Positions 944 through 51,020 of a DNA stretch of 64,000 nucleotides are shown here, in pieces. The stretch's first letter is position 1. Each line of letters starts with the position of its first letter. The DNA is from Psychrobacillus sp. FSL H8-0483 (lineage in GTDB: Bacteria > Bacillota > Bacilli > Bacillales_A > Planococcaceae), in contig NZ_CP152052.1 in the NCBI RefSeq assembly GCF_038637725.1, positions 975,501 to 1,039,500 on the forward strand, read 5' to 3'. The notes below the pieces were generated by a model, which saw only the letters and a program-made list of their open reading frames with translations, was not told the DNA's origin and ran no database searches. The translations under genes and the position numbers were made by a program.

Positions 944-978
944 TAACTATAGCCATTTTTAAATAGGAGGAAATGAAC

Positions 979-1653
979 ATGACAAAAATTATTATTATAG
1001 ATGACCACCAACTTTTCCGCGAGGGAGTAAAACGTATACTAGATTTCGAAGATACATTCGAGGTTGTGGCAGAAGGCAGCGATGGTAGTGACGTACTTCG
1101 TTTGTACGAACAATACTTACCAGACGTTGTATTAATGGATATTAATATGCCTACGAAAAATGGCGTAGATGCAACAGAAGAGTTAATGGAAAAATTCCCA
1201 GAAGCGAAAGTAATTATGCTTTCCATTCATGACGACGAATCATACGTATCCCATGCATTAAAAACAGGTGCACTTGGATACATGCTAAAAGAAATGGATG
1301 CTGTAGCAATCGTCTCTGCTATTAAAGTGGTAGCAAAAGGCGGATCATACCTACATCCAAAAGTAACTCGTAACCTTGTAGCAGAATTCCGTCGCCTAAG
1401 CGAACGTGAAAATAAAGGAAACTTCCATCAAACCGAAATTCGCCGCCCGTTCCATTTACTAACAAAGCGCGAATGCGAAGTACTTCAACTATTAACAGAT
1501 GGACAAAGTAACCGTACAATCGGAGAAACTCTATTCATCTCTGAAAAAACAGTAAAAAACCACGTATCAAGCATACTTCAAAAAATGAATGTAAACGACC
1601 GCACCCAAGCAGTAGTAACAGGCATCAAAAACGGCTGGGTTGAAGTGAGATAA
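979..1653 (+). CDS. degU: DegU response regulator
   Basis: NarL/FixJ-type response regulator of 224 residues, partner of DegS. It controls motility, competence, exoenzymes and biofilm in Bacilli. The receiver domain (about residues 1-120) has IIDDHQLF and the phospho-acceptor Asp in VVLMDINMP. The C-terminal LuxR-type helix-turn-helix has [23 protein letters not shown] and [13 protein letters not shown]. An ATG at 973 is also in frame, but the AGGAGG at 965-970 lies only 2 nt before it and 8 nt before the ATG at 979, which was therefore chosen. A strong terminator follows. DegU could act on the flagellar and competence genes in this window (inference). Confidence 0.97.
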
Positions 1654-1699: not shown

Positions 1700-2290
1700 T
1701 ACATTAATGTATTGCGCGTATGCGAGTGAATGTTGCGAATAACACCTATAATATTGCGAGTAAGCCCGATAATCTTGCGAGTAACAAAAACATTGCGAAT
1801 ACCGCTCGGAATATTGCGCATAAGCGAGTGAATGTTGCGAATAATGCCCACTATATTGCGAGTAAGCCCGATAATCTTGCGAGTAACAAAAACATTGCGA
1901 TTACCGCTCCAAATATTGCGCGTACGCGAGTGAATGTTGCGAATAATGCCCGCTATATTGCGAGTAGGCCCGATAATGTTGCGCATAACAAAAAATTGCG
2001 AATACCGCTCCAAATATTGCGCGTACGCGAGTGAATGTTGCGAATAACACCTATAATGTTGAGAGTATGCCTGATAATGTTGCGCAAAGCAAAAACATTA
2101 CGATTACGGCTCCAAATATTGCGTATACGCGAGTGAATGTTGCGAATAATGCCCGCTATATTGCGAGTAAGCCTGATAATGTTGCGCATAACAAAAACAT
2201 TGCGAATACAGCTCGGAATATTGCGCATACGAGAGTGAATGTTGCGAATAACCCCCACAATATTGTGAGTAGGCTCGACAAATTTGCGTG
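1700..2290. repeat. 21-bp satellite array with 102-bp higher-order unit
   Basis: About 29 head-to-tail monomers with the core ATNTTGCGNRTA. The TTGCG (or one-mismatch) core starts at 1712, 1733, 1754, 1775, 1793, 1814, 1835 and onwards to 2284. Spacings run 21, 21, 21, 18, 21 and then repeat, giving a 102-bp higher-order unit (one unit is 101 bp) about 5.5 times. Because 21 and 102 are multiples of 3, the array is open in several frames and yields Asn/Ala-rich pseudo-ORFs on both strands (for example repeats like NVANN, NIAS). These lack ribosome binding sites and are treated as artefacts. The array fills the gap between the degU terminator and the 3' end of the opposing NERD gene. The same monomer recurs at 37000 and 49719. 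Confidence 0.95.
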
Positions 2291-2316
2291 TAACAAAACT
2301 TGCTCTCATATTCTCT

Positions 2317-3246
2317 TTATTTATCACTTTTCTGCGTGAAATATCTCCCAGGACCGGAGCCGTGTGCTTCTAAATTCATCTTATTTAACATGCGAGATGC
2401 TGAATAGATGGATTCAATTCCACAAAATCTTCGAATCTCTTTATTAGTAATTTCTTTTTTGATTAACAGAAAATAGTCGTTTACAGCAGAAATATGTGCG
2501 TAGCGATGATTTTTCTTACAGGCTAAGCATGTCCAAGTAGTCGATAAGCGCTTCATTCCCAAAACACCACAATGCGGACACTCCACACCTCTAATCAAAT
2601 CATTCGGAGAAATACGATAATGTTCGCATAACGGAGGATACGTAAACTTGGATTGCTCCCCTCGAATCATGTGCTCAAGAGTAGCCAGCTGTTTATCAGA
2701 CAGGAAATCAGGAGAAGAATGGTTGTACATATGAATAATTTTCTCAATAATGCTTTCTAATTTAAACACGGGATAATGGGAAGGTTTATTCCGGATTCGA
2801 CACGATTTGGATGTCATGACGATGGCTCCGGTTACTTGAAGTTCGGGGAATGACCTGCGTAACAAATCTTTCATAAATCGTATATTACGCATCAATTGAA
2901 AATATGGGTTTGGGAAAGGCGTTTCAAGATTATTTCCTTCTAGTCTATAAAACTCCTCGGTGCTCGTATCGAAATTCAAATCTCCACTCATATTTTTAGA
3001 CTCTAACACAATGCAACAACGATCCGTCACAACAAGGCAATCGATTTGCACCTTCCAATCACCTTCATGCAACGCTACATCCGAAATAATCCGAAACGTA
3101 CCTAGCAATCTTAACTCTCCAAGCTTTACTAAAAGTCTATCCTCACCGCGCTCTCCAGCCTCTTTTTTTCGAATCTCTTCACGAATAAAACTCTCATTCT
3201 CGTGCGTATTACCTAATCTTTTTAATAAAGCTAAATGACCTTGCAA
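2317..3246 (-). CDS. NERD domain protein with C-terminal zinc ribbon
   Basis: Predicted 309-residue cytoplasmic protein. The N-terminal half (about residues 30-150) is a NERD (nuclease-related) domain: GERGEDRLLVKL, an IDCLVV strand and the VLESKN motif that mimics the D-(D/E)-x-K nuclease core. Residues about 225-255 hold a four-cysteine zinc ribbon (CPHCG...CLACK) followed by a basic helical tail. The TTG start is supported by GGAGG 7 nt upstream on the minus strand. Its function is not established; NERD proteins are thought to process or bind nucleic acid. It is transcribed towards the satellite array. Neither it nor the next gene belongs to the B. subtilis degU-degV interval. Confidence 0.85.
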   Translation of the reverse strand: MQGHLALLKRLGNTHENESFIREEIRKKEAGERGEDRLLVKLGELRLLGTFRIISDVALHEGDWKVQIDCLVVTDRCCIVLESKNMSGDLNFDTSTEEFYRLEGNNLETPFPNPYFQLMRNIRFMKDLLRRSFPELQVTGAIVMTSKSCRIRNKPSHYPVFKLESIIEKIIHMYNHSSPDFLSDKQLATLEHMIRGEQSKFTYPPLCEHYRISPNDLIRGVECPHCGVLGMKRLSTTWTCLACKKNHRYAHISAVNDYFLLIKKEITNKEIRRFCGIESIYSASRMLNKMNLEAHGSGPGRYFTQKSDK

Positions 3247-6942: not shown

Positions 6943-7353
6943 ATGGGTGAACTAAAAAATTGTCCGTCCTGCGGCGAATTTTTTAACTATACAGGATTAA
7001 GAGAGGTATGTAATAACTGCGCGATGAATGAAGAAAAACTATACGAAATCGTATACCGATTCCTTCGTAAACGTGAAAATCGAGCAGCAACCGTTGAGAG
7101 AATTGTAGAAGCAACTGGCGTAGAGGAATCGCTTCTACATAAATGGGTACGTAAAAATAGACTTCAACCAGCCATGTTCCCAAACCTTGGCTATCCATGT
7201 GACAACTGTGGAAAATTAACAAACGTTGGAAAGCTATGCGCAAGCTGTAGCCAAAAACTACAAGCTGGACTACGTCAATTCGACGCTGCAAAAGAGTTTC
7301 GTGAAAAAGTAAACAACCAAGAAGCTACTACTTATCGTAAAGATAGAAGTTAA
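6943..7353 (+). CDS. yvyF: YvyF-like flagellar operon zinc-finger protein
   Basis: 136-residue protein matching the TIGR03826-type flagellar operon family that sits upstream of flgM. Three CxxC pairs are visible, CPSC and CNNC at the N-terminus and CDNC and CASC near residues 84-105, with a helical segment between them resembling a helix-turn-helix (TVERIVEATGVEESLLHKWV). The molecular role is not established; it may influence flagellar gene expression. The gene order comFC - yvyF - flgM matches B. subtilis. A terminator follows directly. Confidence 0.88.
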   Translation: MGELKNCPSCGEFFNYTGLREVCNNCAMNEEKLYEIVYRFLRKRENRAATVERIVEATGVEESLLHKWVRKNRLQPAMFPNLGYPCDNCGKLTNVGKLCASCSQKLQAGLRQFDAAKEFREKVNNQEATTYRKDRS

Positions 7354-7381: not shown

Positions 7382-7397
7382 TAATCAGGTTCAATCC

Positions 7398-7500
7398 AGT
7401 ATAAACTCATCTGAAGTGAGCATAACCAGGTCTGAATCCAGCATAAACCTCACTGAACTCAGCAAAACAACTTCAAATTAAGACTCGAAGGAGCTATAAC
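7398..7500. repeat. Short 21-bp-period array, AG(C/T)ATAA family
   Basis: AG(C/T)ATAA-type cores start at 7398, 7419, 7440, 7461 and (degenerate) 7481, spaced 21, 21, 21 and 20 bp, with TGAA or TCAA about 6-8 bp upstream of most. The sequence is unrelated to the TTGCG array but has the same period. It lies between the yvyF terminator and the flgM promoter. Confidence 0.7.
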
Positions 7501-7663: not shown

Positions 7664-7927
7664 ATGAAAATTTCTAACATTGGTTTAAACCAAGTAAATC
7701 CATATAAACGCAACCAACAGCTATCCGAGAAAGCACAAAACACATCAAAAACAACTGCCGATCAATTGGAGATTTCATCTGTTGCCAAAAGCATGCAAAC
7801 GAAATCACCTGTAGAAGTAGAACAAGCAGAACGCGTTGCTGCAATAAAAGCCGATATAGATGCTGGCACTTATAAAGTAGATGCTAAAAAACTAGCAGCC
7901 AACATTCTCAATTATTACCGTATGTAA
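7664..7927 (+). CDS. flgM: FlgM anti-sigma-D factor
   Basis: 87-residue anti-sigma factor that holds SigD until the hook-basal body is complete. The C-terminal half carries the family pattern RVAAIKADIDAGTYKVDAKKLAANIL, which binds sigma. The N-terminal half is low complexity and probably disordered. A GGGGAGG ribosome binding site lies upstream. First gene of flgM-flgN-flgK-flgL. Confidence 0.95.
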   Translation: MKISNIGLNQVNPYKRNQQLSEKAQNTSKTTADQLEISSVAKSMQTKSPVEVEQAERVAAIKADIDAGTYKVDAKKLAANILNYYRM

Positions 7928-49668: not shown

Positions 49669-49718
49669 GCGTGGAGTATAAGCGATGAAGTGATTGGACT
49701 AGGTGTGTACTGGGGATG

Positions 49719-49873
49719 TTGCGAATAATGGCCAAAATATTGCGAGTATGAAGTGTGATATTGCGAATAACAGAGTTAATATTGCGAGTAAGCCAATCGA
49801 TGTTGCGAGTAAATGGTTCGATCTTGCGTATGCCACTATATATTGCGAGTACCAGGTACTATATTGTGCGTAA
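49719..49873. repeat. TTGCG 21-bp array, third copy
   Basis: Eight monomers: TTGCG (last TTGTG) at 49719, 49740, 49761, 49782, 49803, 49824, 49843 and 49864, that is 21-bp steps with one of 19. Core AATATTGCGAGTA as in the array at 1.7-2.3 kb. It sits between the ilvA terminator and the catE promoter. Any ORF read through it is artefactual. Confidence 0.9.
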
Positions 49874-50892: not shown

Positions 50893-50920
50893 TATAAAAA
50901 TTTACAAATAATGTATAAAC

Positions 50921-51020
50921 GAGACCAATTCCTCCAAACCGAGACCAAATCGCCAAATTCGAGACCATTTTCTCCTCAACCGAGACCTACTCCTCCAAAC
51001 CAAGACCAATTCGCAAAATC
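50921..51020. repeat. 20-bp-period array, GAGACC family
   Basis: GAGACC starts at 50921, 50941, 50961 and 50982, with AAGACC at 51002 (steps 20, 20, 21, 20). Variable CTCCAAAC/CGCCAAAT-type sequences fill the rest of each unit. Unrelated in sequence to the TTGCG arrays but of the same period and also directly after a terminator. Confidence 0.85.

Follow-up and report, generated by a model that had tools for sequence, protein, structure and literature searches.

Behind the degU gene of Psychrobacillus sp. FSL H8-0483 lies a satellite array of ~21-bp monomers with a TTGCG core, and across the genus we have found that the array sites persist while the monomer sequence turns over. As the main text of PMC8161180 describes it, the published class of constant-length 20–21-nt repeats includes arrays of this kind, and the degU array belongs to it. 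The window, i.e., the whole stretch of 64,000 nucleotides analysed here, is part of a single-contig genome of 4,136,829 bases. The features at the degU site are given below, with the array coordinates accurate to ~10 bp.

973–1653, plus strand: degU response regulator gene (Response_reg and GerE domains), the upstream neighbour
1666–1693, no strand assigned: terminator-like hairpin between degU and the array, with a 12-pair stem read on the minus strand
1709–2298, plus strand: satellite array of 29 monomers of ~21 bp, 5.8 units of 101–102 bp (TRF and core positions)
1709–1810, plus strand: higher-order unit 1, steps 21, 21, 21, 18, 21 (core positions)
1775–1792, plus strand: short 18-bp monomer with the A-tract spacer AACAAAAACA, which has a counterpart in each of the five complete units
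1811–1912, plus strand: higher-order unit 2 (core positions)
1913–2013, plus strand: higher-order unit 3, 101 bp, containing the 17-bp step (core positions)
2014–2115, plus strand: higher-order unit 4, with the mutated cores TTGAG and TTACG (core positions)
2116–2217, plus strand: higher-order unit 5 (core positions)
2218–2298, plus strand: higher-order unit 6, partial, with the mutated core TTGTG (core positions and TRF)
2317–3246, minus strand: NERD-domain gene (E=7.8e-14), the convergent neighbour of the array

TRF describes the array with a period of 102, 5.8 copies, 86% matches and a score of 800 (1710–2298), and weaker rows of period 21 are nested inside it. The exact TTGCG is found in 26 of the 29 in-register monomers, while the three deviant cores, TTGAG (2059), TTACG (2098) and TTGTG (2263), fall in units 4 and 6. 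Counted from core positions, the array has 28 steps, with 23 measuring 21 bp, four measuring 18 bp and a single one measuring 17 bp. These data confirm the original prediction of 21-bp monomers in a 102-bp higher-order unit, as well as its step series of 21, 21, 21, 18, 21 with a single 17, which belongs to unit 3; they also support its proposal that a unit of five monomers was amplified block-wise. The further claim that every core faces the same side of the helix is only partly true, since a 17–18-bp step interrupts every complete unit. Actually, 102 bp corresponds by arithmetic to 9.7 helical turns at 10.5 bp per turn, so that neighbours 21 bp apart lie on the same side and the phase slips at each short step. 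The view that such order is rare in bacteria fails within the genus, where higher-order units with no fewer than 2.4 copies were obtained for 12 of 19 degU-downstream stretches.

With at most one mismatch, ATNTTGCGNRTA occurs 52 times in the window, 27 of them within the degU array, whereas 100 dinucleotide shuffles gave 11.5 ± 3.2 occurrences and never as many as 52. At least 60% of the repeats in the array are of identical length (±1), which is the SATFIND criterion, here judged from core positions. A search of 1700–2300 for inverted repeats (12 bp or longer, within 60 bp) gave 0 hits, and the RNA fold of the array is no better than that of shuffles (z 0.35). No Rfam family reached its cut-off, the one match up to E=1 having 21.8 bits against 48 (E 0.025), and plasmid records gave no match. 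The array is not built like a CRISPR locus: it has a 5-bp core and spacers recurring every 102 bp instead of near-identical repeats with unique spacers.

The array begins directly past the degU terminator and is in sense orientation to degU. The DegU protein of the window is 100% identical to that of Psychrobacillus faecigallinarum over residues 3–226, and the hairpin search near degU gave 3 sites in 1 kb compared with 1.3 ± 1.3 in shuffles. On the other side, the NERD-domain protein also shows a sub-threshold transposase-type zinc ribbon.

TTGCG repeats downstream of degU are present in 18 of the 19 genomes of the genus (the own genome included), each with at least five TTGCG (5 to 37) within 1,200 bases after the gene. 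In the 19th genome (G017), the assembly stretch stops 156 bases past degU, and the end of that stretch resembles the start of an inserted gene. Likewise, the nine closest named degU loci, eight from Psychrobacillus and one from Bacillus sp. FJAT-22090, all carry an array behind the degU terminator, though these loci overlap with the 19 genomes. When three cores 18–22 bp apart are required, all 19 genomes have matches, 839 in sum compared with 10 for the reversed pattern. Outside the genus, two Paenisporosarcina loci have neither the array nor the NERD gene at the degU place, that is, the NERD gene is missing together with the array, and a third Paenisporosarcina locus has a 21-bp array with another core there.

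The same persistence can be followed at a second place, where two more arrays of the window flank a glyoxalase-family gene on opposite sides.

49716–49872, plus strand: second TTGCG array, between a PALP-family gene and the glyoxalase-family gene
50920–51012, no strand assigned: third array, ~20-bp period with core CGAGACCA (TRF periods 20 and 41)

The PALP-family gene appears to be threonine dehydratase-like. At the site of the second array, at least three TTGCG are found in 14 of the 19 genomes; in three (G001, G013 and G018) the array there is built on a TATSACCG-type core, and the remaining two, G003 and G016, show at most remnants. The turnover can be fast: G013 and G018 carry different arrays behind degU although their degU genes are 98.1% identical.

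We have then compared the changes between unit copies inside and outside the core. In 12 degU arrays, located by position and with units aligned to their own consensus (7 of the 19 genomes have no unit of 2.4 copies), 32 of 1168 core sites are changed compared with 250 of 3565 sites in the rest of the 21-column frame. That is, the rate is ~2.6 times lower in TTGCG (odds ratio 0.37, Fisher p 1.3e-8), with the reservation that counts inside one array are not independent events. The lower core rate holds in 11 of the 12 arrays, and the exception is G001 (7/110 core, 18/332 other). By offset, changes are rarest at T1 (0/234), T0 (2/234) and A-3 (3/231) and most frequent at +9 to +11 (0.11–0.13), which indicates a protected stretch of ~12 bp with a gradient, as expected of a binding site. 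Constraint is uneven even within the core, from 0/234 at T1 to 14/233 at C3. A base-matched test in 7 arrays found 17 of 730 core sites changed where 46.9 are expected from the spacer rates; its set, the window plus the named loci (9 stretches, 2 without a usable unit), overlaps with that of the 12 arrays. A second set, which was chosen via its cores, comprises 10 arrays out of 17 loci and shows 8 of 744 core sites changed compared with 148 of 2442 in the rest, and in one of these arrays (L154) core and spacer rates are equal.

The original prediction held that a functional reading fails if the array is absent or randomly spaced in close relatives and its core is no better kept than the spacers. 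Instead, the array occurs in 18 genomes, steps of 21 bp dominate and the core is less changed, so a sequence-specific reading at the DNA level is favoured over pure slippage. Still, homogenisation without function may also account for these data.

The higher-order unit varies in length over the genus. It is 101–103 bp in seven genomes (G000, the genome of the window, and G001, G003, G005, G007, G011 and G014), 112–113 bp in G009, G015 and G016, 124 bp in G002 and 203 bp in G004. The short step is associated with an A-tract: AAAA occurs in 29 of 42 spacers of 17–20-bp steps compared with 18 of 245 spacers of 21–22-bp steps (Fisher p 9e-18, though spacers within an array are related). Among the genomes with short steps, the A-tract is present in 7 of 9 at the degU site and in 3 of 6 at the glyoxalase site. 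Since the short A-tract step recurs across genomes, the higher-order unit is largely a shared architecture and not a single accident.

Outside the core, the degU array and the glyoxalase-site array of the same genome have a similarity of 0.423, though the two sites are 48 kb apart in the genome of the window. Across genomes, the value is 0.351 for different sites, 0.350 for two degU arrays and 0.357 for two glyoxalase-site arrays. This excess within genomes has a permutation p of 5e-5 in the 13 of 19 genomes with three TTGCG in both arrays (the other 6 being omitted), and the own partner ranks first in 4 of the 13. The two arrays thus change in concert, which fits a shared reader as well as conversion between arrays.

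In a wider sample, the period is much more constant than the core. Among 80 named degU loci (972,517 bases, not picked for repeats), nearly all titled as Planococcaceae genera and the others as near relatives, TRF reports 66 non-genic arrays with a period of at most 60; of them, 36 have period 21, and 15, three and two have periods of 42, 41 and 40, respectively. In other families, none of 7 non-genic arrays has a period of 21 or 40–42, the sample being 16 stretches from 15 genomes (288,707 bases; one stretch per genome, with two of G026 and none of G033). This contrast is valid for non-genic arrays only, because period 21 is common inside long ORFs (10/24 in the family set and 4/6 outside the family), as expected of coding repeats. 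After merging, lag 21 gives the best autocorrelation in 52 of 58 arrays, lag 20 in 2 and another lag in 4; as the seeds of this list were picked by period (18–23 or 78–260), the unseeded TRF count is the fairer one.

The cores, in turn, differ from genus to genus, and arrays of ~21 bp whose core is not TTGCG are a common feature of Planococcaceae. Of the 151 genomes from the family, 84 contain the three-core TTGCG pattern (17 of them in the genus); here, single matches may be chance and the reversed control rings in some genomes as well. Where this control reaches tens (34 in G045, 31 in G103), we read the counts as arrays with other cores. In the class sample, 124 of 299 genomes have the pattern, with 28 of the 299 belonging to the family. 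A restriction to the family is not supported: most of the 271 outside genomes are control-like, but several are above, namely G311 (16) and G385 (14), whose matches are array-like, G195 (14), G281 (9), G218 and G288 (6 each), and G297 and G333 (5 each), while the reversed control outside the family reaches 15 (G325) and 12 (G317). TTGCG as an invariant of the class is ruled out by the other cores of other genera, and within Psychrobacillus it is contradicted by the TATSACCG-type arrays and by TAGCG monomers abundant in G003. One genome of the genus g34 (G051) is very rich in ~20-bp TTTATTTGCG arrays and has 183 three-core matches.

The arrays favour convergent gaps and the 3' sides of genes. 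In the 80 loci, which are orthologous, 25 arrays are in convergent gaps (113 such gaps), 23 in tandem gaps (386) and 2 in divergent gaps (163). Of the 58 arrays, 8 were left unclassed, as 4 lay in mechanical ORFs and 4 at the edge of a locus; 9 of the 25 convergent arrays are the degU site of L042–L050, and some gaps contain two arrays. For TTGCG arrays, 58 rows minus 6 inside mechanical ORFs leave 52, of which 23 are convergent, 3 are divergent and the others lie between tandem genes, 10 in sense and 16 in antisense. Some of the 52 are parts of split arrays, some represent the degU site of orthologous loci, and one (L043) is a plus-strand array read on the minus strand. The counts indicate that promoter regions are avoided and that orientation is independent of transcription; a transcription-linked polarity is ruled out by the mixed orientations.

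A replication-linked polarity was considered and not kept. In four genomes with dnaA located, TTGCG points towards the origin in 22 of 27 arrays, all 5 exceptions lying in the degU region. Among the matches listed, the towards/away counts are 4/7 in G008 and at least 5/6 in G004, and one place points away in G003, as read by hand with the terminus assumed opposite the origin. Of the 27 arrays, 24 have a positive leading-strand AT skew, so base skew may account for the origin-ward trend.

How should these observations be explained? We tentatively read the array, with its observed position, lattice, lower core substitution, dialect sharing, A-tract step and lack of excess RNA fold, as a DNA-level lattice of sites for a putative sequence-specific protein, placed behind terminators and between converging genes, and we hold that this reading comes close to an even chance. 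The site would be approximately A-N-N-T-T-G-C-G-N-N-N-A, once per 21 bp of double-stranded DNA, and the protein might spread or cooperate along the lattice. Its location between converging genes points to a possible topological or insulating role: the lattice could help to arrange the nucleoid or take up the supercoiling that transcription generates, and the shorter A-tract step once per ~102 bp may punctuate it as a hinge or a phase reset. The recognised motif and the satellites would drift together, which would lead to species-specific dialects. Several observations speak against such a lattice. Core conservation is missing in G001 and L154, homogenisation between monomers could protect a shared core without selection, and the difference between the degU arrays of G013 and G018 is fast even for a functional site. 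In addition, the dialect effect is modest with several dialects at once per genome, and AAAA is absent from the short steps of 2 of 9 genomes at degU and 3 of 6 at the other site. A strong rival is a functionless, concerted-evolving satellite, neutral or selfish, which we regard as a serious possibility though clearly below even. In this view, 21-bp units would multiply by unequal crossing-over and conversion in gaps that lack promoters, and conversion of short tracts from monomer to monomer would keep the core alike and spread dialects between arrays. The evident block amplification, the rapid replacement of whole arrays, the location at places of least expected harm (2 arrays for 163 divergent gaps) and a dialect common to two distant sites all agree with it, but it does not predict a single period with different cores (36 of 66 at 21 and 20 more at 40–42), the long persistence at the same sites, or the uneven constraint inside the core from T1 to C3.

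The placement at convergent and 3' positions and the multi-site arrays would also suit a BIME/REP-like gyrase or topoisomerase site at which the positive supercoils that build up between converging genes are relieved, given the link between BIME and gyrase. We consider this improbable, because the repeats are direct and show no inverted repeat within the 12-bp and 60-bp limits given above, in contrast to the palindromic REP units, and because the motif differs between genera though gyrase is conserved. Acting at the RNA level, a read-through transcript of the array could serve as a small RNA, sponge or pause element, a role that has been proposed mainly for 52-nt satellites (PMC8161180, PMC8625621); the array is just past the terminator and in sense to degU, and B. 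coagulans is reported to have satellite transcripts (PMC8625621). However, orientation to the flanking genes is mixed (tandem 10 sense, 16 antisense), no fold signal is seen and the sole Rfam match is below cut-off, which makes it quite improbable. That the array encodes a small protein with a 7-residue unit is hardly credible. Both 21 and 18 are multiples of 3, and both strands have open frames of ~100 codons that run through the array, but the 17-bp step breaks the frame, relatives have steps of 20, 22 and 29 bp, and the listed G051 arrays are of ~20 bp, so this coding reading is largely refuted by spacing. Returning to the protein lattice, a bolder extension would be a chromosome-wide system of Planococcaceae, in which a fast-changing DNA-binding protein co-evolves with 21-bp lattices behind convergent genes and an A-tract hinge sets the ~102-bp unit. 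We regard it as rather unlikely; if true, it would be a bacterial counterpart of the races between satellites and their binding proteins.

Several known systems resemble the arrays in part. BIME/REP elements of enterobacteria are palindromic units of ~35–40 bp that occur at gene 3' ends in many copies with fast turnover. They share this location, multiplicity and turnover with the arrays, but have no 21-bp direct lattice, and paired palindromic units were not found in the inverted-repeat and fold tests of the array. In eukaryotic alpha-satellites, which have 171-bp monomers, megabase scale and centromere function, each monomer of a higher-order repeat likewise has its match in the next unit and not among its neighbours in the same unit, and a short protein-binding box can stay while the rest drifts; size and centromere function are different. 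Plasmid iterons and ParB-type centromere repeats are protein-bound direct repeats of about two helical turns. They differ from the arrays here, since the TTGCG arrays of the window adjoin degU, NERD, PALP and glyoxalase-family genes and not initiator or partition genes, and several chromosomal arrays exist per genome.

The closest match is the work of Subirana and Messeguer, whose main text describes bacterial tandem repeats with constant length of 20–21 or 52 nt and variable sequence (PMC8161180). It remarks that the length is two helical turns, proposes a polymerising protein or a small RNA, and gives a short signal common to the repeats, TCGCGG in B. weihaiensis. The arrays here agree with that description in their non-coding 20–21-nt period, in species-specific sequence that differs in other species, in several families per genome and in a short signal. 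Beyond what that text offers, we describe higher-order units in which one step carries an A-tract, sites that persist throughout the genus, a quantified constraint on the core, a preference for convergent gaps and gene 3' sides, and dialects shared between arrays. The main text of PMC8161180 nowhere uses 'intergenic', 'convergent' or 'higher order', nor did we find there higher-order units, site persistence, core constraint, convergent placement or the A-tract step, some of which the supplements or the J. Bacteriol. 2020 paper may contain. Our literature search listed no paper on Psychrobacillus arrays. So far as the main text goes, site persistence with turnover, core constraint, convergent/3' bias, dialect sharing and the short A-tract step should be new. 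The keeping of constant-length non-coding repeats with changing sequence is called enigmatic there (PMC8161180). Because the sites are genus-wide, the constraint on the core can be measured and the unit is defined, this enigma can now be put to a direct test, with one known site, a predicted motif and many natural dialects to work with.

The genome of the window carries several array families, namely TTGCGNRTA, TTGCGATT and CGAGACC-type arrays. Arrays of the TTGCGNRTA dialect are also found at 1,025 kb (window 49,716), 1,045 kb and 1,070 kb, and TTGCG arrays with other extensions, e.g., TTGCGATT, at 664, 877, 882, 1,470 and 3,170 kb. This makes nine TTGCG array places, the matches at 969,797 and 2,748,331 being excluded from the count; eight of these places fall in 0.66–1.47 Mb, and four of the eight lie inside 93 kb. 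The third array of the window (50920–51012) has a CGAGACC core, with TTGGTCTCG on the opposite strand, and in the array at 664 kb TTGCGAA and TTGGTCTCG are mixed. The window also contains a 41/42-bp tandem repeat (two ~20.5-bp units) at 7382–7468, between ORFs 6943–7353 and 7664–7927. At ~965.5 kb of the same genome (L132 5484–5761), there is a repeat of 21-bp period with 13 copies, which may be coding. Finally, a 103-bp higher-order array made of a different 21-bp monomer, TTGGGGAACTCAAGAGGTGTA, was observed at L043 2187–2807, in a 12-kb locus shared with a TTGCG array.
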